The notes under the pieces: model-generated
Seen by the model: the letters and a program-made list of their open reading frames with translations, nothing else
Databases searched by the model: none
Told to the model about the DNA's origin: nothing
From: a virus
Strand: one strand, 5' to 3'
Virus record (IMG/VR): IMGVR_UViG_3300030098_000500
Span: 1 to 21,813 of that record
DNA: 21,813 bases
Part shown: in pieces, positions 418 through 9,306 of the stretch
Layout: the number at the start of each line of letters is the position of its first letter
Position numbering within the stretch: position 1 is the first letter of the stretch
Position numbers and translations under genes: made by a program

Positions 418-608
418 TTTCCTTCTTTCTTGAGCAGTTCCATTTCTTGTCTGCTCTTTACTATTTGCTGGCATCGCTGGCTTGTTACATCAAAGCCACG
501 ACGCAAAAGTTCTCTTGAGATTTTGCTGTACGACATTCCCTTTCTGTGCAGGTCAACTATTATTCTATTTCGTGGCGTATCTAGTGCGCCTGTTTTTTTA
601 CGTCCCAT
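414..608 (-). CDS. Small helix-turn-helix DNA-binding protein
   Basis: This is a 64-residue basic protein. Its core, RNRIIVDLHRKGMSYSKISRELLRRGFDVTSQRCQQIVKS, reads as a helix-turn-helix: helix 1 about residues 13-23, helix 2 at 26-34 (SYSKISREL), a turn at RGFDV, and a recognition helix at 42-52 (TSQRCQQIVKS). The pattern resembles HTH_23 and sigma region 4-like domains. There is no room for another domain, so it is probably a small transcriptional regulator or an adaptor of host RNA polymerase; this is inference. The start is preceded by AGAAAGAAAGGAAAATA. It overlaps the stop of the upstream gene by 1 nt (TAATG) and the downstream gene by 4 nt (ATGA), placing it inside the leftward small-gene operon. 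Confidence 0.8.
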   Translation of the reverse strand: MGRKKTGALDTPRNRIIVDLHRKGMSYSKISRELLRRGFDVTSQRCQQIVKSRQEMELLKKEGK

Positions 609-991
609 TATTTTCCTTTCTTTCTAATGGTTACTTTAGGCAAATCTTTTTGTTTCGCAAATTCAATTATACGTTTGATTTCACCACCCTTTTTCATCTC
701 TCGATTTAACTTGGTTTTATTCCATTCACGAGGCTTTGGTTTGTTTAATAATTCTTCCTTTTCTTCTGGCGAGTAATGTTCGTCCAGAGGCTTCAACGCT
801 TCTTCAATCCATTTAGTTTTCGGCTCTAGCTTTACTGTCCAACGAGCGTTCTCAAATAACGACGCTTCGGCATCTTCCATTTCCCGCTTAATAGCAAGTT
901 CTAAAATGCCGATTTCATCAAATAACTCAGACCGCTCGTTCTTCTTCTGCTCTAATAAATCGAGCAATTCACTCATCGATTTTTCGTCCAT
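608..991 (-). CDS. Hypothetical charged, helical protein
   Basis: This 127-residue protein is very rich in Lys and Glu. Residues ~1-45 form a probable amphipathic coiled coil (SMSELLDLLEQKKNERSELFDEIGILELAIKREMEDAE). A central segment contains FENARWTVKLEPKTKWIEEALKPL, and the C-terminal ~45 residues are strongly basic (KPREWNKTKLNREMKKGGEIKRI and KVTIRKKGK). I chose the ATG at 991 because AGAGGTAAGACT lies immediately before it. An in-frame ATG at 1009 has no binding site and would begin inside the preceding gene. The upstream gene ends at 1002, so the stop codon is next to this ribosome binding site. The acidic and basic halves suggest a nucleic-acid or protein-binding accessory factor, but I recognise no family. 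Confidence 0.75.
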   Translation of the reverse strand: MDEKSMSELLDLLEQKKNERSELFDEIGILELAIKREMEDAEASLFENARWTVKLEPKTKWIEEALKPLDEHYSPEEKEELLNKPKPREWNKTKLNREMKKGGEIKRIIEFAKQKDLPKVTIRKKGK

Positions 992-1001
992 AGTCTTACC
1001 T

Positions 1002-1334
1002 CTATTCATTAATCAGATAACCAGAACTAGTTTTTATCACTGGTGTCATGGTTGCATAGTGGTCGCCGTCATAGCTTCCAACAATCTCGACATCGTAGGC
1101 TTTTATTTCATACTTGAAACTGTTTCTAGAATTCATGTCGAGTCTGATGTTCTCTGCTACCGCTTCCGCGGCTGCTATTACGTCGCTATTGTCACTGGCG
1201 TATGTTGACGGGACAGTTGCTGAAAACTGAAAACTGTCACCATCTTTAACAGTCGCCTTGTATCGTGAGCCTTTGTAATTTGTCGGTCCTAGAAATTTTA
1301 TTTTTATCAAATGTTGATAAAAGTTCTGAATCAT
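1002..1334 (-). CDS. Small conserved-looking phage/plasmid accessory protein
   Basis: This 110-residue protein begins MIQNFYQHLIKIKFLGPTN. The stretch KFLGPTNYKGSRYKATVKDG resembles the start of a small protein family common in phages and mobile elements, where a FLGPTN-type strand is followed by GSR-KA and then a Ser/Thr strand; here that is FQFSATVPSTY. No function is known to me for that family. Residues ~62-80 (VIAAAEAVAENIRLDMNSR) look helical and the C-terminus is beta-rich. I chose the ATG at 1334, not the in-frame ATG at 1370, because AAGAAGGAACAA precedes it and it makes a 4-nt ATGA overlap with the upstream gene's stop. It is part of the small-gene operon. Confidence 0.75.
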   Translation of the reverse strand: MIQNFYQHLIKIKFLGPTNYKGSRYKATVKDGDSFQFSATVPSTYASDNSDVIAAAEAVAENIRLDMNSRNSFKYEIKAYDVEIVGSYDGDHYATMTPVIKTSSGYLINE

Positions 1335-1567
1335 TTGTTCCTTCTTTCTAAAAAAACTGGCTTCACCCATCTTGAAACATCTACAAAGCGATCTATCACA
1401 GTTTCAATCCCGTCAGTCTGATACACAGCTACCTGCAAGGGCGAACCATCATCAGGTAACCAGAAGTTCACTTCTAACATCGACTCATTAAGTCTGTCCC
1501 ACCAATCTTCTTCACAGCCATCGTCTATCCACCGTTGGTGAGATTTCTGTAAGCTGGTTTTTATCAT
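1331..1567 (-). CDS. Hypothetical protein
   Basis: This acidic 78-residue protein is unusually rich in tryptophan (WIDDGCEEDWWDRL, VNFWLPDDG, SRWVKPV). An N-terminal helix runs through residues ~5-32, followed by short strands (LEVNFWL, LQVAVYQ, ETVIDRFVDV). I see no catalytic or metal-binding signature. The start at 1567 is well supported by AAAGAAGGAACGA directly upstream. The gene ends in an ATGA overlap with the next gene, so the two are probably co-translated. The 146-nt gap on its 5' side carries two strong RNA hairpins, so this gene is the first one downstream of that structured leader and may be affected by it. Function unknown. Confidence 0.7.
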   Translation of the reverse strand: MIKTSLQKSHQRWIDDGCEEDWWDRLNESMLEVNFWLPDDGSPLQVAVYQTDGIETVIDRFVDVSRWVKPVFLERRNK

Positions 1568-1588
1568 TCGTTCCTTCTTTCTTTATGC

Positions 1589-1620
1589 GAGGCAACGCCA
1601 GTGTCCGCTGACGCTGCCCC
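1589..1620 (-). ncRNA. Strong RNA hairpin upstream of a small gene
   Basis: On the transcribed strand the sequence folds as GGGGCAGCGTCAG, loop CGGACA, CTGGCGTTGCCTC: 13 base pairs, three of them G-U. The G-U pairs are possible only in minus-strand RNA, which suggests the structure is selected as RNA. There is no U-run after it, so it is not an ordinary intrinsic terminator. It ends about 21 nt upstream of the start at 1567, just before the ribosome binding site, where it could protect the downstream mRNA or affect initiation. Confidence 0.6.
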
Positions 1621-1642
1621 TAGCAGTACAAGTGAGGCGTCC

Positions 1643-1700
1643 CAACCTGTCTGTTAACCCCTAAGCCCCACGACGCTGTGCGAGGTGGGGCGGTAGGTTG
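1643..1700 (-). ncRNA. Nested GC-rich RNA structure of unknown class
   Basis: Read on the minus strand, an outer helix CAACCT/AGGTTG (1700-1695 with 1648-1643) encloses a perfect helix GCCCCAC/GTGGGGC (1691-1685 with 1671-1665). The latter is capped by CGC-ACA-GCG after a 2x2 internal loop. It begins ~14 nt after the stop of the gene ending at 1714. The unpaired purine-rich segment TTAGGGGTTAACAGAC lies between the inner helix and the closing strand. The gap is much more GC-rich than its surroundings. I do not recognise it as a tRNA or a known riboswitch. Confidence 0.5.
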
Positions 1701-1713
1701 TATGCGATAAAAG

Positions 1714-1914
1714 TTAGCTACTAATGCTCCTTACAAGTTGTATTTTGGTTGCATCGGGAGCATGGTATTGTTTTTTACCATCAACAATCCACAGGTGTCC
1801 CTTGTGGCAGCCTTTAGGCAGGTCACCCTTTGCTGGCAGGTCACATCGTTCCGGGAGGTTGACAAACTCGCTTGTGTGATAGCACCCATCTTTCATAGTT
1901 ATTTGTTTAGTCAT
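1714..1914 (-). CDS. Small Cys/His-containing hypothetical protein
   Basis: This is a 66-residue protein with three Cys and several His (GCYHTSEF, ERCDLP, KGCHKGHLWIVDGKKQYHAP). The Cys/His spacing could support a small metal-binding fold, but it is not a clear zinc-finger pattern. The short strands TSEFVNL and HLWIVDGKKQYH suggest a small beta domain. The start at 1914 is preceded by GAAAGAAAGGGACTAAGAA, a variant of the leader motif repeated before most genes of this operon, and lies 3 nt from the preceding stop. Downstream is the structured gap 1568-1713. Function unknown. Confidence 0.7.
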   Translation of the reverse strand: MTKQITMKDGCYHTSEFVNLPERCDLPAKGDLPKGCHKGHLWIVDGKKQYHAPDATKIQLVRSISS

Positions 1915-1917
1915 TTC

Positions 1918-2163
1918 TTAGTCCCTTTCTTTCAATGCGAGATATGAATTTGCGTTTGCTTCAATTTCTTTTAGTGTTCTGTAAGAATGAGTCTGTCCAA
2001 ACAATAACTCATTACTAAACACGTCGTACCATGCTCCGTCCTTTTCAATACTGAATCCAGCAGCGACCATTTCTCGTAATTTCAAACTGCGAAACTGGTG
2101 TTCCTTTACTTTGAAAAGTCCTCTGTTTGGATTGTTTAGGTCTATGTAAAGTTGGTCGTTCAT
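1918..2163 (-). CDS. Hypothetical protein downstream of hammerhead ribozyme
   Basis: This 81-residue protein begins MNDQLYIDLNNPNRGLFKVKEHQF. A plausible two-part layout is an N-terminal beta portion (residues 1-22), then a helix and strands around SLKLREMVAAGFSIEKDGAWYDVFSNELLFG, and a C-terminal helix (YRTLKEIEANANSYLALKER). I recognise no family. The start is preceded by GAAAGGAACTAAATAA. This is the first gene downstream of the predicted self-cleaving ribozyme: cleavage between 2216 and 2215 would give its message a new 5'-hydroxyl end with a 52-nt leader. Its expression may therefore be uncoupled from the gene upstream. Function unknown. Confidence 0.75.
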   Translation of the reverse strand: MNDQLYIDLNNPNRGLFKVKEHQFRSLKLREMVAAGFSIEKDGAWYDVFSNELLFGQTHSYRTLKEIEANANSYLALKERD

Positions 2164-2179
2164 TTATTTAGTTCCTTTC

Positions 2180-2253
2180 TCAGATGAAGTCTCATCAGTA
2201 CGCCTATTTGACGTAGACGCTCCGCAGAGCGTTTCGACTAATTTCCTATCCGA
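2180..2253 (-). ncRNA. Type II hammerhead self-cleaving ribozyme
   Basis: The minus strand carries every core element in hammerhead order, with stem II open. Stem II outer is UCGGAU/AUCUGA (2253-2248 with 2185-2180). An internal loop AGGAAAUU/UC follows. Stem II inner is AGUC/GACU (2239-2236 with 2191-2188), giving the canonical 10.1-11.1 G-C pair. GAAA is at 2235-2232. Stem III is CGCUC-UGCG-GAGCG (2231-2218). The cleavage triplet is GUC, with U16.1 at 2217 and C17 at 2216, so cleavage falls after 2216. Stem I is UACGUC-AAAUA-GGCGUA (2215-2199, one G-U). CUGAUGA is at 2198-2192. The loop I and stem II internal loop are placed for the usual tertiary contact. The ribozyme starts at the stop codon region of the upstream gene and ends against the AAAGGAAC binding site of the next. 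Confidence 0.92.
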
Positions 2254-2464
2254 TGACAAGAAGGTTGTATTGTTGGTCGTACCAGCCAATGATTCTGTCC
2301 CACTCATTCCAAAAATGCCCATCTTCGTCCATCTTGTATGTAAGAAATCCATCTACTGCTTTACGAGCAACAGGCTTGCTGATTCTGATAGATGTATCCA
2401 CATCTGCAATGGTGACCGTTGCGTATACGCTGTCTGCCTTGTTGATTGCTGTTGAGAGTTTCAT
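2246..2464 (-). CDS. Hypothetical protein, first gene of the small-gene operon
   Basis: This 72-residue protein begins MKLSTAINKADSVYATVTIADVDTSIRISKPVARKAVDGF. A beta-hairpin (VYATVTIADVDTSIRIS) is followed by a helix (KPVARKAVDGFLTYKM) and a C-terminal pair of aromatic strands (WDRIIGWYDQQYNLLVIG). No family is recognised. It is the first gene after the sigma70-like promoter at 2511-2540, with a leader of roughly 40 nt; AAGGAAC lies slightly far (about 10 nt) from the ATG at 2464. Its TAG stop (2246-2248) sits inside the 5' strand of the hammerhead ribozyme, so terminating ribosomes would cover part of stem II. An overlapping frame at 2164-2352 was rejected as a shadow. Confidence 0.72.
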   Translation of the reverse strand: MKLSTAINKADSVYATVTIADVDTSIRISKPVARKAVDGFLTYKMDEDGHFWNEWDRIIGWYDQQYNLLVIG

Positions 2465-2510
2465 GGTCTTTTTAGTTCCTTTTTTCTTTATCGTTTATTG
2501 CGATGTATTT

Positions 2511-2540
2511 ATTCTAAACCCCCTTTATTTGTTTTGTCAA
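2511..2540 (-). promoter_or_regulatory. Sigma70-type promoter for the leftward small-gene operon
   Basis: On the minus strand a perfect -35 box TTGACA (2540-2535) is followed by an 18-bp spacer and the -10 box TAGAAT (2516-2511), five of six matches to TATAAT. Transcription should start near 2504, about 40 nt before the first ATG at 2464. It lies just beyond the late-operon terminator, so it opens a separate transcription unit. The near-consensus form suggests recognition by unmodified host RNA polymerase. Confidence 0.85.
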
Positions 2541-2560
2541 TACTTATTAGTAACGTATTT

Positions 2561-2595
2561 AAAAACAATCCCGCCAACCGAAGCTGACGGGATTG
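2561..2595 (-). terminator. Intrinsic terminator ending the structural operon
   Basis: The minus strand forms CAATCCCGTCAGC-TTCG-GTTGGCGGGATTG, a 13-bp stem (two G-U pairs) with a C(UUCG)G tetraloop, followed directly by TTTTT. The G-U pairs exist only in minus-strand RNA, which fixes the direction. It lies ~98 nt after the last late gene and ~20 bp before the -35 box of the next operon. Confidence 0.93.
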
Positions 2596-2693
2596 CGAAA
2601 GAAAGGAACCCCCACATTCTCTGCGTGAAAGGCGACCAAACCAAACAAGAGGTATATGTGAGTTGCTTCTAGTTTACCACCTAAAAACAAATA

Positions 2694-2936
2694 TCAACGT
2701 TGATGCTTATGCCGACCAGTTTTCTTCTTGCGTTTGCCGTTTCCCTTGATGATGCCTAATTTACCGCCTAGCTTGCCCCATTCAGGCAAAGTGACGGTTC
2801 CATCAGCAAGGACTTCCAAAGCGTAATCAAACGCTTCTTTACGCTGCTGTGGCGTATCTAATTGAGCAAAAATACTTTGTCCAATTTCCATTACATTACG
2901 CTGTTCTTTTGAAAGTAATTTTAAAAATAAATTCAT
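2694..2936 (-). CDS. Small basic protein of the lysis-proximal cluster
   Basis: This 80-residue protein has a helical first half (NLFLKLLSKEQRNVMEIGQSIFAQL, TPQQRKEAFDYALEVL), then ADGTVTLPEWGKLGGKLGI, and a Lys/Arg-rich tail (KGNGKRKKKTGRHKHQR). The DGTVTLPEW stretch resembles the second half of an EF-hand loop, but the full 12-residue loop is not there. The basic tail could bind nucleic acid or membrane surfaces. The start at 2936 is preceded by AGGTGACTT; that binding site is itself a diverged unit of the 9-bp repeat array. It is the last gene before the terminator. Its position after a holin-like gene suggests a late or lysis role, which is inference only. Confidence 0.75.
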   Translation of the reverse strand: MNLFLKLLSKEQRNVMEIGQSIFAQLDTPQQRKEAFDYALEVLADGTVTLPEWGKLGGKLGIIKGNGKRKKKTGRHKHQR

Positions 2937-2938
2937 AA

Positions 2939-3030
2939 GTCACCTATGTCACTTAAGTTACTTAATAATTAATATTTTTATTTAAGTTACTTAAGTTACT
3001 TAAGTTAATTAAGTTAATTAAGTTACTCAG
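2939..3030. repeat. Array of 9-bp repeats, consensus GTTACTTAA
   Basis: Read on the plus strand in 9-base steps, units are GTCACCTAT (2939), GTCACTTAA (2948) and GTTACTTAA (2957). After an AT-rich ~20-bp interruption come GTTACTTAA (2986), GTTACTTAA (2995), GTTAATTAA (3004), GTTAATTAA (3013) and GTTACTCAG (3022). The last unit contains the stop codon of the holin-like gene and the first supplies the ribosome binding site of the next gene. The units are contiguous with no spacers, so this is a tandem repeat and not a CRISPR. Confidence 0.9.
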
Positions 3031-3181
3031 CTTCTAAAACTTTCATTCCAAGTGCGATGATACCTCCGACAGTACCAGTCGCAATTTCTGGCATATCGTT
3101 GTTAATGCCAAACGTCGCAAGAACGCCTAGCACAACAATCGCTAGAAAAATTTGCGGTCGTAACTTACCTAACCAATTCAT
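3023..3181 (-). CDS. Small holin-like membrane protein
   Basis: This 52-residue protein begins MNWLGKLRPQIFLAIVVLGV. A first membrane segment spans about residues 10-26 (QIFLAIVVLGVLATFGI). A short polar link NNDMPE follows, then a second, Gly-rich hydrophobic segment at about 32-50 (IATGTVGGIIALGMKVLEAE). Size, one or two hydrophobic helices and position in the late operon fit a small holin, which would permeabilise the host inner membrane at lysis; sequence alone cannot prove this. The start at 3181 has a clear AGAGGAAACAAT binding site that overlaps the TAG stop of the upstream gene. The stop lies in the 9-bp repeat array. No endolysin gene is recognisable nearby. Confidence 0.75.
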   Translation of the reverse strand: MNWLGKLRPQIFLAIVVLGVLATFGINNDMPEIATGTVGGIIALGMKVLEAE

Positions 3182-3191
3182 ATTGTTTCCT

Positions 3192-4253
3192 CTAACTTGG
3201 TGGTGAAATATTTACTTCAACGTTATCTTCGTTGACGAATGATTTATAAATTACTGATGTTGTTATTTCAAATTCTTTCGTGGCAAAACCGTTCCCCGCT
3301 CCAACCTCATTTACAAGAATTTCTAAAGTCCCTGCTTTGATTCTATCGAGTATGCAAGGACCTCCTTTTGTATAAAGATTGGACAAAACCAAACGGTCTA
3401 TCTTGCCATTGATTCCGCTTGATGCAGAAGTGATTTTAAGTTGGTCATAATAACCGCCAGACGTAAGCATATCGTCCGCTCTGTTACCGCCACTGATTGC
3501 CCTATCTCTTGGAACTCCTGCTACCGCTGCGATTGATTGACCGTCAGACGCATTTCCTTTCACAATCAGTTCATGCGCTTCAATGTTAGTTAGCTTGAGC
3601 GAATCGCAACGCCATTTCTCTACGGTCATGTGACCTACTTCCAAAAATGTTTCCGTGAAAGCTGGGTCGCTAGAAGCAGCGATGCCACCCACAATAACCG
3701 CATTACTCTCACCCGATGGTAAAGCCGAATTAGCATAAGCAGTTCCTAGCGTGACATCTTCAATCTTGACCAAGCCAATAGGCGTTGAACCCAAGTCGAG
3801 CCGTAGAGTATTAAACTCACTGTCAGAATATATTGGACTATCAAGCGGAGCGTTATAAACACCGGGATCTCCCGCTGCAAATGATGGTGGCTTCATTGCT
3901 TCTGCTGCTACTGCACCTGTGGCAGTTGTTGTTCCAACAGCAAGCAAGCCGACCGCCCATTGAGGCGAAAAGCCTAATTTCAAAAGCAGGGAATAAGGAG
4001 ACCGAACAATCTGGAACGTCCGCTTCCATTTAGCTGATTCCGCTTCAAGGTAATCAACCTTAGCAAGAACCCAATCTCGCCATTTTTTAGTCTTGCGATA
4101 CAGAGCGACAGGAGACTGAGCCACTATGCCCGGAGCAGCATTAATTCCATAACATACCTGTCTTAGCACCCAAAGCGCATAAACAAAAGGTTTCAGTAAC
4201 AACTTCAATAATGTTGATACAAAATTTGGAACAGTCAGTAATCGTTTGAACAT
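3192..4253 (-). CDS. Membrane-anchored, beta-rich protein of unknown function
   Basis: This 353-residue protein has two parts. Residues 1-~120 are helical, basic and hydrophobic: a segment at about 8-36 (VPNFVSTLLKLLLKPFVYALWVL), a charged linker rich in Lys and Trp (YRKTKKWRDWVLAKVDYLEAESAKWKRTF), and a second hydrophobic stretch at about 96-120 (WAVGLLAVGTTTATGAVAAEAM). Residues 121-353 are beta-rich and Gly/Ser/Asn-rich, with repeating short strands (DSLKLTNIEAHELIVKG, KIDRLVLSNLYTKGG, IKAGTLEILVNEVG). This suggests a solenoid or spike-like domain. It overlaps the nuclease gene by 1 nt (TAATG) and is followed by the holin-like gene. It could be a virion or envelope-interacting protein; I do not recognise a family. 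Confidence 0.8.
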   Translation of the reverse strand: MFKRLLTVPNFVSTLLKLLLKPFVYALWVLRQVCYGINAAPGIVAQSPVALYRKTKKWRDWVLAKVDYLEAESAKWKRTFQIVRSPYSLLLKLGFSPQWAVGLLAVGTTTATGAVAAEAMKPPSFAAGDPGVYNAPLDSPIYSDSEFNTLRLDLGSTPIGLVKIEDVTLGTAYANSALPSGESNAVIVGGIAASSDPAFTETFLEVGHMTVEKWRCDSLKLTNIEAHELIVKGNASDGQSIAAVAGVPRDRAISGGNRADDMLTSGGYYDQLKITSASSGINGKIDRLVLSNLYTKGGPCILDRIKAGTLEILVNEVGAGNGFATKEFEITTSVIYKSFVNEDNVEVNISPPS

Positions 4254-4663
4254 TACTCTGCCTCTAACTTGTTTTTCACTTCCTGCATCACTGGATATCT
4301 ATTAAGCATATCTTGGTAGGTCATTTTCTTTTCGCCACCATAGGGATAAGCGTAGCCTTTGTCAATCAACTCAAAGTTGACATTTAACCCATCAGCATAA
4401 ACTATTCCAAGCGCACGACCGAATTTCCCAATATCTTTTACTTCAACCAAAAGGGATTTTGCGTTTAAGAGAACCCCGCCTAAAAACTTTTTCGCAGCTA
4501 ACCCATGTCGCTTTTCCTCTAGGTCGCGTGTGCGTGACTCAGGAGTGTTTATGCCTGACAGCCTAATAGTCTCCACCTTATGAGTCTTAAATCCAAGGTC
4601 TAACTCAGCAACAAAAGTGTCACCGTCAATCACGCGAACAAGTTTCGCTCCATAGTCGTACAT
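4253..4663 (-). CDS. Staphylococcal nuclease-like (SNase/thermonuclease) protein
   Basis: This 136-residue protein has the SNase OB-fold pattern: VIDGDTFVAEL at residues 11-21, IRLSGINTPES at 33-43, and GKFGRALGIVYADG at 79-92. The catalytic and calcium-binding positions map as Asp13/Asp15, Arg34, Glu42 and Arg83; the usual metal-ligand Asp before TPE is Asn39 here. The family hydrolyses DNA and RNA with calcium. No signal peptide is visible, so it would act in the cytoplasm or ride in the particle. It sits in the tail/lysis part of the late operon, with TAATG overlaps at both ends and AGGACTCA before the start. Roles could include host DNA degradation or attack on the cell being infected; which one is not shown. 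Confidence 0.9.
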   Translation of the reverse strand: MYDYGAKLVRVIDGDTFVAELDLGFKTHKVETIRLSGINTPESRTRDLEEKRHGLAAKKFLGGVLLNAKSLLVEVKDIGKFGRALGIVYADGLNVNFELIDKGYAYPYGGEKKMTYQDMLNRYPVMQEVKNKLEAE

Positions 4664-5361
4664 TATTGAGTCCTGATTTCTCTAGTGGACATTCCTTGAT
4701 CGGAGTAGTTCGTGTTAGTGTCTCCACTTTCTTTAAAATCTGTTTGGTATGTAGTCGAAGAATTTGCTGCACCAATATCGACAACAGTTCCTTTTACAAT
4801 AACTTCTGCGTTTAAACTGGCTGGCATGGTTTCACTGAACTCTGCAAGCTGAGTCCCGCCTTTTTCAATGTTCATATAAACAGTACCGCCAAGACCATTC
4901 GCATTTTTGAAAGTTACTTGTCCTTCAATAATCATTGCGTATTTTGCCGAGCCTGTTGAATCGCTTGGTGTTTGAGTTATTGAACGACCATTGTTTCCAT
5001 AAGACGTTGGAGCCCCTGCAACAGTTACGCTGGTATCGGTATTACCTGTTCCACTTGCTTGAGTATGCGTATGGTTTGCTAAAGCTATCGCTGTCGCTGC
5101 GCCTGACGCTCCTGCTCTAATTTTAAAAGTTTCCGATTCAGAAAATAATTTGACTTTGTTAGAACCGGGAGCAGCAGGAGTCGAACCGCTATCGTCAAAC
5201 GTGATAGTGTCCACGCCTGTCATTTCATCGTTACCATCACCTGCAGCCCCGGAATGAGTATGAGTACTCAATGCGTTCAACTGGTCACGAATATGAGTGT
5301 TCAAATCGTCTGCGTCTGGAATGTCTCCATCAGACCATGTTTTTGGTGTTGTCCATGCCAT
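4663..5361 (-). CDS. Tail fibre/tip-like protein with HTHSG motif (long paralogue)
   Basis: This 232-residue protein opens with MAWTTPKTWSDGDIPDADDLNTHIRDQLNALSTHTHSGAAGDG. The N-terminal pattern recurs in the next gene upstream. It fits a short helix for trimer or platform attachment followed by a His-x-His motif (HTHSG), which in phage fibres often binds metal along the trimer axis. A second HTH occurs near residue 98 (LANHTHTQASG). The C-terminal ~110 residues form a beta-rich domain (YAMIIEGQVTFKNANGLGGTVYMNIEKGGTQLAEFSETM) that could contact a receptor. Start and stop codons overlap the neighbours by 1 nt (TAATG). I assign it as a structural tail-tip or fibre component; the receptor role is inference. 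Confidence 0.8.
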   Translation of the reverse strand: MAWTTPKTWSDGDIPDADDLNTHIRDQLNALSTHTHSGAAGDGNDEMTGVDTITFDDSGSTPAAPGSNKVKLFSESETFKIRAGASGAATAIALANHTHTQASGTGNTDTSVTVAGAPTSYGNNGRSITQTPSDSTGSAKYAMIIEGQVTFKNANGLGGTVYMNIEKGGTQLAEFSETMPASLNAEVIVKGTVVDIGAANSSTTYQTDFKESGDTNTNYSDQGMSTREIRTQ

Positions 5362-7243: not shown

Positions 7244-7569
7244 TAGCTTGGTTTCTGATACTTAGCCTTCACCGCTGTAATATGGTCTTTCCAAGTAGAA
7301 GTACCATTGAGCGCATCTTTGTATTGCATATCTAACTGATCGCCAATCGTTCCATATGCTTCCCTGCGAAACTCTGCATAATTAGCATGAGTTCCACCAT
7401 CTTTTTCTACTGCATCAGCAACTTCTTTGTCGTAACTTGCTTGCGCCCAACCGTCAATAGTGGCGTTGTACTCAGTCGAATTGAGTTGACTTGAAACTCC
7501 ATCGACCATTTTTGTGAGCGTTGGGTTATCTGATTTTAGTTGCGCTTTCCATTCTTCTAATGTTGCCAT
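7243..7569 (-). CDS. Small tail-associated protein of unknown function
   Basis: This 108-residue, mainly helical protein begins MATLEEWKAQLKSDNPTL. The C-terminal half carries EFRREAYGTIGDQLDMQYKDALNG and ends STWKDHITAVKAKYQKPS. The combination YxxIGDQLDM...W...I..VKAKYPKP is familiar from small proteins next to tail fibre genes in many environmental phages, where a fibre-assembly role has been supposed; I know no proof. Its position just after three fibre-type paralogues agrees with that. Its ribosome binding site, GGAGTAGGC, is formed by the last codons of the preceding gene, and its start overlaps that gene's stop by 1 nt. Confidence 0.78.
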   Translation of the reverse strand: MATLEEWKAQLKSDNPTLTKMVDGVSSQLNSTEYNATIDGWAQASYDKEVADAVEKDGGTHANYAEFRREAYGTIGDQLDMQYKDALNGTSTWKDHITAVKAKYQKPS

Positions 7570-8105
7570 TAGCCTACTCCGTACATAGTAATTTTACCTG
7601 AATCTATATTCCCACTGTCGAATTTAAAACTAATCCTAGTTAAAGCAGTTGTTGTATTGACATAGCCAGCGCAAAAACTGTCCATCAGTATGTCGGATTC
7701 ATGGACTTCAATCATACGAGATTGAAAATGTTTTACGAAAGTTGTATCTGATGGAGCATATAAAGTTAAAATTCCGCTTACTGATTGATCGTTGTCATTT
7801 CCAAGATCGTTACATAACAATTGATAACTTGTTCCGTTACCTTGATCGTAAGCTGCTATATATGCCACTTCTTCATCACTGTCATCTTCGTGCAGTTTCA
7901 TTCTAAAAAATGATGAAGTTATTTGTTGGTTGTAGTTCGTGTTAGTCCCCGTATCAACTTGAAATGAAATAGCTACCGCATCTGTTTGGGGGTGTAAATT
8001 CACTAAATGAAATTCATAGGCATCATAAGTTCCATCTATTCCTGAAGTGAAATTTAATGTAGAACTTGATGAAGCTGTTTGAGAAGAAAGATAAGTGAGT
8101 GCCAT
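7569..8105 (-). CDS. Fibre-type protein, paralogue 3 of 3
   Basis: This 178-residue protein is the last of three tandem related genes. It starts MALTYLSSQTASSSSTLNFT and shares these blocks with its relatives: SSxLxFTSGID.TYDAYEFHLVNLHP, FQVDTGTNTNYNQ, GILTLYAPSDTTFVKHF, and a C-terminal RISFKFDSGNIDSGKITMYGVG. Composition (Ser, Thr, Asn, Tyr; few Lys) and predicted all-beta form fit a trimeric fibre or receptor-binding domain. The final GVG codons plus stop (GGAGTAGGCTAATG) double as the ribosome binding site and start region for the next gene. Role on the particle is inferred from position between the large fibre gene and the hub gene. Confidence 0.8.
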   Translation of the reverse strand: MALTYLSSQTASSSSTLNFTSGIDGTYDAYEFHLVNLHPQTDAVAISFQVDTGTNTNYNQQITSSFFRMKLHEDDSDEEVAYIAAYDQGNGTSYQLLCNDLGNDNDQSVSGILTLYAPSDTTFVKHFQSRMIEVHESDILMDSFCAGYVNTTTALTRISFKFDSGNIDSGKITMYGVG

Positions 8106-8644
8106 TAACCCACTCCAAACATTTTTATTTTTCCCGAATCAATATTTCCTGAGTTCATTTTAAATTGAACTCTTGTGATAGCTGTCGTTTGATTAATGTA
8201 TCCCCCGCAATAACTATCTAGCACTTGAGGAGTACTTCGCATTAGTGAAGTTCTTGCAAGAAATTGTTTAACGAATGTGCTACTTGAAGGATCGTATAAG
8301 GTAAAAGTGCCTGACATAGAAGCGTCATTGTCACCGCTGCTTATATTTTCTCCGCATAAATCTTGAAATGAAGTCCCTGCGTTTTGATGTCGGTTTGCAT
8401 CTGCGCCTACTCCTGAACTTGAACCGTTTTCATTGTGGTAAGCGTAAAAGAAAGCAGATTGAATTGTTTGGTTGTAACTGGTGTTAGTTCCTGTATCAAC
8501 TTGAAATTGTAGTCTTGTTGAAGATGCCGGGTGAATATTTATAAATTGAAACTCATAAACTGGATATGTTGAATCAATCCCTGAAGTGAATGAAAGAGTT
8601 GAAGAAGCTGATGCAGTCTGTGTTGAAATTAGTGTCTTGCCCAT
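8105..8644 (-). CDS. Fibre-type protein, paralogue 2 of 3
   Basis: This 179-residue protein starts MGKTLISTQTASASSTLSFT. It has the same order of blocks as the flanking paralogues (GIDSTYPVYEFQFINIHPAS, FQVDTGTNTSYNQ, GTFTLYDPSSSTFVKQF, VQFKMNSGNIDSGKIKMFGVG). The middle differs most (HNENGSSSGVGADANRHQNAG), as expected of a variable surface loop. It lacks the N-terminal extension found in paralogue 1, so it may need that protein for attachment. Its last codons (GGAGTGGGTTAATG) provide the ribosome binding site of paralogue 3. I infer a fibre or fibre-tip role from sequence style and position. Confidence 0.8.
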   Translation of the reverse strand: MGKTLISTQTASASSTLSFTSGIDSTYPVYEFQFINIHPASSTRLQFQVDTGTNTSYNQTIQSAFFYAYHNENGSSSGVGADANRHQNAGTSFQDLCGENISSGDNDASMSGTFTLYDPSSSTFVKQFLARTSLMRSTPQVLDSYCGGYINQTTAITRVQFKMNSGNIDSGKIKMFGVG

Positions 8645-9306
8645 TACGACTGAGAAACTCCGTACATTTTGATTTGTCCTGATTCAGTGTTTCCTGTACT
8701 CAACTTGAAGCTAATTTCGTCAATCGCTGATGTGATATTAAAGTAACCGCCGTTGTGAACATCTTGGTTGTATTGAGTCCCGCCTGTCCTAGAACTAGAC
8801 CTTGCATAAAAATGTTTCACATGCGTCGTATCGCTAGGGTCAAATAAAATAAATACTCCTGAGATAGCTTCGTCATTACCTGTTCCGGTATACCCAGAAA
8901 TTATTGAATAATTTTGAGTGTTTGATTGACCCCAACCCTCATATTGCAAGTTGTAGTTATATCCGTGTTCTGCATGGTAGGAAGCTAAAGTGTCGTTTAT
9001 AACGTATTCATTGAAACCACTTCCCCCCACAGCGTTTGCTTGAACTTGCAAGTGAGAACTGCCCGCACTTGCCGGGTGAAGATTTGTAAAATGAAATTCG
9101 TAAACCTCATACGTCGAGTCGATGCCAGAAGTAATATCGATGCTGGCACTATTAGAAGCAGTATGCGTTGAAATCAACGTATGAGCGTCAGATATACCAG
9201 TAAACTCAAGCCCGTTTAGCTTTTCAATATTGGAATCAGTTTTTCCATTGAACGCTTCAATATCGGCAATCGCAATCGCATTTATTTTTTCGATTTCATT
9301 AGCCAT
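8644..9306 (-). CDS. Fibre-type protein, paralogue 1 of 3 with N-terminal extension
   Basis: This 220-residue protein is the longest of the three paralogues. Residues 1-~38 form an extra helix rich in Ile, Ala, Glu and Asn (ANEIEKINAIAIADIEAFN, then SNIEKLNGLEFTG), a type of extension often found at the base of environmental-phage fibres. The shared domain follows (LISTHTASNSASIDITSGIDSTYEVYEFHFTNLHPAS through KLSTGNTESGQIKMYGV). The middle loop (YHAEHGYNYNLQYEGWGQ) is aromatic and differs from the relatives, consistent with a receptor contact. It abuts the large fibre gene with no gap (TAA next to ATG). The extension suggests this copy is the one that docks on the tail. Confidence 0.8.
   Translation of the reverse strand: MANEIEKINAIAIADIEAFNGKTDSNIEKLNGLEFTGISDAHTLISTHTASNSASIDITSGIDSTYEVYEFHFTNLHPASAGSSHLQVQANAVGGSGFNEYVINDTLASYHAEHGYNYNLQYEGWGQSNTQNYSIISGYTGTGNDEAISGVFILFDPSDTTHVKHFYARSSSRTGGTQYNQDVHNGGYFNITSAIDEISFKLSTGNTESGQIKMYGVSQS

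Follow-up and report, generated by a model that had tools for sequence, protein, structure and literature searches.

A short-form type II hammerhead ribozyme at a gene junction of an uncultured tailed phage and its probable role in mRNA processing

The role of hammerhead ribozymes in phage genomes has been an open question since 2011. One such ribozyme lies at the junction of two small genes in an uncultured virus. The window, as the whole 21.8-kb stretch of DNA analyzed is called here, is an uncultured virus record whose gene content is that of a tailed phage. Its minus strand carries terminase, portal, protease, capsid and tape-measure genes, after which small genes follow. The capsid protein is <35% identical to the cultured matches listed, and DNA searches with the region found no cultured relatives. 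Three neighboring similar genes at 7569-9306, with STQTAS/SSQTAS and ITSGIDSTY-like motifs, are probably duplicated structural genes. AT-rich iteron-like repeats of TTAAGTTAC/TTAAGTTAA separate two small genes at 2940-3025, and a 52-aa protein (PQIFLAIVVLGVLATFG...MPEIATGTVGGIIALGMKVLEAE; 3023-3181, minus strand) has >200 viral-contig relatives with identities of up to 81%, a conservation that is odd given the size of the gene. Located 3' of the structural genes are, in minus-strand order, a terminator, a promoter, the 72-aa gene, the hammerhead, the 81-aa gene and more small genes:

2565-2596, minus: intrinsic terminator of the preceding transcription unit, just upstream of the promoter
2511-2540, minus: sigma70-like promoter, TTGACA-18-TAGAAT, 11/12 consensus match
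2246-2464, minus: upstream gene, 72 aa, function unassigned, UAG stop at 2248-2246; relatives exist
2172-2177, minus: ribosome-binding site AAGGAA of the 81-aa gene, predicted to be single-stranded in the downstream product
1918-2163, minus: downstream gene, 81 aa, function unassigned, AUG at 2163

The promoter (2540-2511) and the terminator upstream of it (2596-2565) are consistent with the early-type operon suggested in the first-pass annotation of this DNA.

The minus strand, which is also the gene strand, contains a complete type II hammerhead with all invariant bases and three stems in type II order. From 2239 to 2188 it reads AGUC-GAA-ACGCUC(UGCG)GAGCGU-C^-UACGUC(AAAUA)GGCGUA-CUGAUGA-GACU, where the caret marks the predicted cleavage site. 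The plus strand has no hammerhead, and its fold is ordinary. The parts of the element are as follows:

2187-2240, minus: class 3 type II hammerhead, from U(-2) to U(tail 2), assigned by core, relatives and model scores
2240, minus: U(-2), 5' half of a conserved U.U outside stem II, covarying with loop nucleotide 7 (A2209)
2236-2239, minus: stem II 5' strand AGUC, pairing with GACU at 2191-2188 over 4 bp, with compensatory changes in the free-flank relatives
2236, minus: C11.1
2232-2235, minus: core GAAA (G12, A13, A14, A15.1), from the core alignment
2217-2232, minus: stem III hairpin ACGCUC-UGCG-GAGCGU, 6 bp, UNCG tetraloop
2216, minus: C17, with predicted cleavage between 2216 and 2215, from its position in the core
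2199-2215, minus: hairpin I, 17 nt, 6 bp, UACGU-CAAAUAG-GCGUA
2192-2198, minus: core CUGAUGA (C3 to A9)
2188-2191, minus: stem II 3' strand GACU, pairing with 2239-2236
2187, minus: U(tail 2), 3' half of the conserved U.U

The three-stem junction thus holds the CUGANGA and GAAA boxes and an NUH triplet, together with the A15.1-U16.1 and 10.1-11.1 pairs. The hairpins at 2232-2217 and 2215-2199 are closed and stem II is open, which is the type II arrangement. Most of what the first-pass annotation had described is borne out: the invariant nucleotides and three ordered stems lie on the minus strand at 2240-2187, both special pairs are present in the RF02276 alignment (minus strand, 2239-2188), the element sits between the UAG stop (2246-2248) and the next ribosome-binding site, and a cut at 2216/2215 would place 52 nt of leader ahead of the AUG at 2163. 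Its account of stem II was right about the open end, whereas the outer helix with an internal loop able to meet loop I, as proposed there, is not shared by the family. An outer stem II helix of length at least 5 occurs in 27.5% of relatives, compared with 23.8% when tails are swapped, and CGGAU/AUCUG with its internal loop was rejected as a family feature. What is conserved instead is the U.U at 2240/2187 together with a loop of the form CANNYAG.

The Rfam search proposed alongside that description identified the family and returned a low score. At the gathering threshold, Rfam gave no match for the window hammerhead; under an E-value threshold, RF02276 (Hammerhead_II) scored 26.6 bits (E 0.0034; 601 nt against 4,227 families), below the family's gathering threshold of 37 bits. 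The score is this low because the window element is a short form, whereas the published type II family is a long, pseudoknotted one. This division emerged from relatives of the element. The window-core pattern matched at least 120 stretches among the viral-contig matches listed, and 145 elements, window included, were read out of the pattern matches. Strong covariation marks stems I and III (197 cells changed on both sides, against 62 in shuffles), and the stem III tetraloop is UNCG or GNRA in 145/218, that of the window being UGCG. The length of hairpin I is bimodal, with 172/295 distinct elements having exactly 17 nt and most others 20-24 nt. In the long form, hairpin I has 19-24 nt and its loop forms a pseudoknot with the 3' tail; in the short form, hairpin I is almost always 17 nt and stem II has 4 bp. 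Among 134 elements compared (87 long, 47 short), loop I/3'-tail pairing of at least 4 Watson-Crick pairs is found in 78-79 of the 87 long forms, against ~17% with swapped tails across all forms, and such pairing is rare in the 47 short forms, which have a covarying fourth stem II pair (G-C 32, A-U 14). The window lacks the loop I/tail helix of at least 4 bp and the 19-24-nt hairpin I that define the pseudoknotted long form; its longest such helix is 2 bp and its hairpin I 17 nt. Most long-form elements tested pass the Rfam threshold, and none of the short-form elements tested, from ten loci of other phages, does so.

The long form corresponds to the type II consensus published by Perreault et al. 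(2011; PMC3088659). Like the type II elements there, the window element has the core, the three stems and an open stem II, and those elements also lie between phage genes and cluster around single genes. It differs in lacking the loop I/3'-tail pseudoknot that most members of that consensus form. The short forms, that of the window among them, do without it, keep hairpin I at a constant 17 nt and for the most part score below the Rfam threshold. A motif with the window's stem lengths (III at least 6, I at least 6, II at least 3, placement ignored) occurs once in 105 Mb of random sequence with matched dinucleotides, or 2e-4 per window. Two further covariance models find a single hammerhead in the window, scoring 73.5 bits with model R2 (26 class 3 relatives, window left out) and 59 bits with model R1 (built without the window), scores that are partly circular because the search patterns were derived from the window's own core; the R1 score is not relied on. 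Assignment to the type II hammerheads is strongly supported by the relatives, the covariation and the position of the element.

Within the short form, the window belongs to a subclass, class 3, defined by a 17-nt hairpin I with the loop C-A-N-N-Y-A-G, a 4-bp stem II and a U.U immediately outside it; the window has UACGU-CAAAUAG-GCGUA for the former and U-AGUC/GACU-U for the latter. The 172 elements with a 17-nt hairpin I occur in two states: A(-2) with U7 in 145, and A7 with U(-2) (26, window included) or G(-2) (1). This association between position -2 and loop position 7 has no exception in the 172, involves positions that were part of no search pattern, and gives the highest corrected mutual information after the helices. 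As an independent test of the state, a scan in which only the core and the loop CANNNAG were fixed, leaving stem II and the flanks free, recovered 38 distinct viral-contig relatives. In all of them stem II has 4 bp, in several different sequences, and is flanked by U.U, except L243, which has G.U, and L092:13491, which has a 1-bp stem II and is probably a chance match. With a single exception, loop position 10 in this set is a pyrimidine, and of the twelve relatives that were out of reach of the earlier pattern, 11 agree with class 3. The covariation of the U.U with the loop points to a tertiary contact. Many hammerheads lack known contacts, according to the 2011 survey (PMC3088659). Class 2 and class 3 were never seen in the same locus, and the switch and its covariation may therefore reflect few ancestral events.

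The possibility that U(-2) is kept merely as part of a stop codon was rejected: with L092 left out, the U.U is retained in 16/17 class 3 elements whose stop lies elsewhere, and it is therefore not there for the stop. The kind of ribozyme, a type II hammerhead, has been known since 2011. The variant looks new, as no description of a pseudoknot-free subclass was found in the literature compared, which took in the main text of PMC3088659. A crystal structure of a pseudoknotted hammerhead (PMC11300833) has the same catalytic core, from which G12 would be expected to act as general base and the G8 2'-OH as general acid; that ribozyme is stabilized by its pseudoknot, and no structure was found for the class 3 U.U/CANNYAG contact. 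In bacterial and archaeal genomes the class 3 pattern has two matches. The Pseudomonas match (L342) was rejected as chance, its hairpin I being unpaired. The other (L343), on a contig filed under a Lokiarchaeota MAG, is a class 3 hammerhead located between a small gene, ubiquitin-like and with a GGRA end, and one of 365 aa that follows it; a JAB-like protein is encoded farther along (gene names assigned by eye). That contig has four model matches and may be viral.

The placement of these ribozymes is strict. A same-strand stop codon lies within 60 nt upstream in 131/145 elements, compared with 21% of control positions, and the median distance (n=145, all forms) from the stop to GUC is 1 nt, and that from the ribozyme to the next ATG 25 nt. 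Most phage ribozymes of this kind lie within a few nt of a stop and about 20-25 nt before a start. The window element is likewise at a cistron junction on the gene strand, with a stop codon 7 nt 5' of the GUC core and, downstream, a ribosome-binding site and an AUG 25 nt 3' of GAC. Several phages have tandem ribozymes flanking single genes; one record contains up to nine by model R1, and contig L217 has nine by model R2. The minus strand of L092 (oriented 454-4846) has ten hammerhead-like ribozymes at consecutive operon junctions in 4.4 kb. The culturable Streptomyces phages R4 and phiRKBJ001 have matching hammerhead cores between annotated genes. Contig L025 has RAGATH-24 and twister-P1 RNAs (174-372, 2309-2357), both under the Rfam gathering score, ~2 kb from a short-form hammerhead.

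No hammerhead was found in the phages that share neighboring genes with the window (about 676 kb searched), and it is therefore no conserved part of this operon. At the junction after the 72-aa gene family, or at a nearby junction, four of these contigs (L003, L004, L007 and L008) have a two-hairpin element, AACCC..GCCCC..GGGGC..GGGUU and a second hairpin, located 5' of the ribosome-binding site. It recurs between stop and ribosome-binding site as AACCC-GCCCC...GGGGC-UAA-GGGUUA followed by a varying hairpin (L003 1209; L004 798/2233/2561/5523; L007 2846/4969; L008 5611; window ~1690-1650, minus strand), and it replaces the hammerhead in relatives. Junction structures therefore seem exchangeable, in agreement with a role in processing or stability. 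The minus strand also has a conserved structured RNA at 1583-1704, between the genes at 1914-1714 and 1567-1331. Over 123 nt it is 80% identical to L008 5595-5716, and it forms a long hairpin with compensatory changes apparent by eye; it has no Rfam match, and a wider search found it in only one other contig.

Taken together, the class 3 hammerhead probably cuts the operon mRNA in cis, between C2216 and U2215, giving separately stable messages (probability roughly two in three). After such a cut, the 3' end of the upstream message, that of the 72-aa gene, would be a stable UNCG hairpin plus C>p. Downstream, the new message would open with a flush hairpin bearing a 5'-OH, followed closely by an open ribosome-binding site, which is single-stranded in the predicted downstream product. 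Judging from the three permutations, only the type II layout, as opposed to types I and III, closes both new ends with local hairpins. Such a cut would therefore yield separately stable, context-independent messages, presumably to the benefit of the phage, and the layout thus fits use at gene junctions. As read from structure and placement, programmed mRNA processing is the most likely role and would be common to hundreds of similarly placed phage ribozymes. Folding predictions complicate this picture. With native flanks, the predicted fold prefers a competitor in which CUGAU pairs with AUUAG (MFE -23.5 kcal/mol), compared with -17.3 kcal/mol for the hammerhead core and -19.5 with the outer helix. 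Stem II has a probability of about 0.09 in this secondary-structure ensemble, which excludes tertiary contacts; the median for class 3 members, computed with shorter flanks than the window's, is 0.77. Cleavage may therefore be slower, or need the tertiary contact or co-transcriptional folding.

The same observations could be read as regulated cleavage. With a terminating ribosome on GUCGAAAC, the ribozyme could not fold, and the RNA would be cut only when upstream translation pauses or falls, uncoupling the genes. The in-frame stop consists exactly of U(-2), A(-1) and the first stem II base in 22/40 class 3 elements, across all forms it typically lies -1 to 3 nt from the core, and the competitor fold predicted for the window would permit an off state. 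Tight packing, however, accounts for the overlap by itself, there is no conserved ligand domain or switch, the window's own stop is set apart from the core, and the U.U persists where the stop lies elsewhere; regulation of this kind is unlikely. A more elaborate picture, in which a pseudoknot-free phage subclass combines the U.U/CANNYAG contact, stem II placed on the stop codon, termination-gated cleavage and, in some operons, protein-free processing at every junction, is unlikely as a whole. If the ribozymes were instead mobile or neutral passengers, cassettes that spread between junctions and cleave to no use of the phage, their patchy distribution and the different hairpin element at the syntenic junction of L008 and others would be expected. 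Such an origin is decidedly unlikely in view of the strict stop-to-ribosome-binding-site placement on the coding strand, the strong UNCG/GNRA preference, ten copies in one operon, and a core and tertiary positions that are fully conserved while all else has diverged.

A chance or decayed, inactive look-alike would agree with the Rfam score under gathering, the weak stem II of the predicted ensemble and the near relatives without a copy. This is very improbable, given a chance rate of ~2e-4 per window before position is considered and a match at every unselected class position: U(-2), the 17-nt hairpin I, C6, A7, Y10, A11, G12 and the A-U fourth pair. The tandem ribozymes around single genes in several phages recall the excised or circular RNAs made by the tandem hammerheads of retrozymes and viroids. 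Excision requires two hammerheads, whereas the window has one, and Perreault et al. (PMC3088659) sought spliced or circular products and found none; this reading is extremely improbable.

Cleavage of the operon mRNA into separate messages, the preferred reading, resembles several known systems. RNase III cleaves the polycistronic early mRNA of phage T7 between genes, giving fragments that end in hairpins; there the work is done by a host protein enzyme, in contrast to the self-cleavage proposed for the window. RiboJ was engineered from a satellite RNA hammerhead and, unlike the window element, is neither type II nor located at a cistron junction. In E. coli, a hammerhead of this kind set 5' of a ribosome-binding site (RiboJ) raised protein 2-10 fold and transcript about 2-fold (PMC6206723), showing that such an element can alter both levels. 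In the 2011 survey (PMC3088659), clustered bacterial and prophage hammerheads cleaved in vitro, and one from A. tumefaciens did so in E. coli. The same source describes a variant in haloviruses HF1/HF2, likewise a viral hammerhead, part of an early transcript and directly followed by a start codon, located upstream of a helicase gene and with a mapped 5' end no more than 3 nt from the cleavage site. It is a core variant from an archaeal virus and falls outside class 3.

At the standard Rfam threshold most of the class 3 subclass goes undetected, and phage ribozymes are therefore under-counted. Strict placement, selected tetraloops and an operon with ten ribozymes make the mRNA-processing idea precise and testable, and the U.U/loop contact can be tested by exchanging two or three bases.
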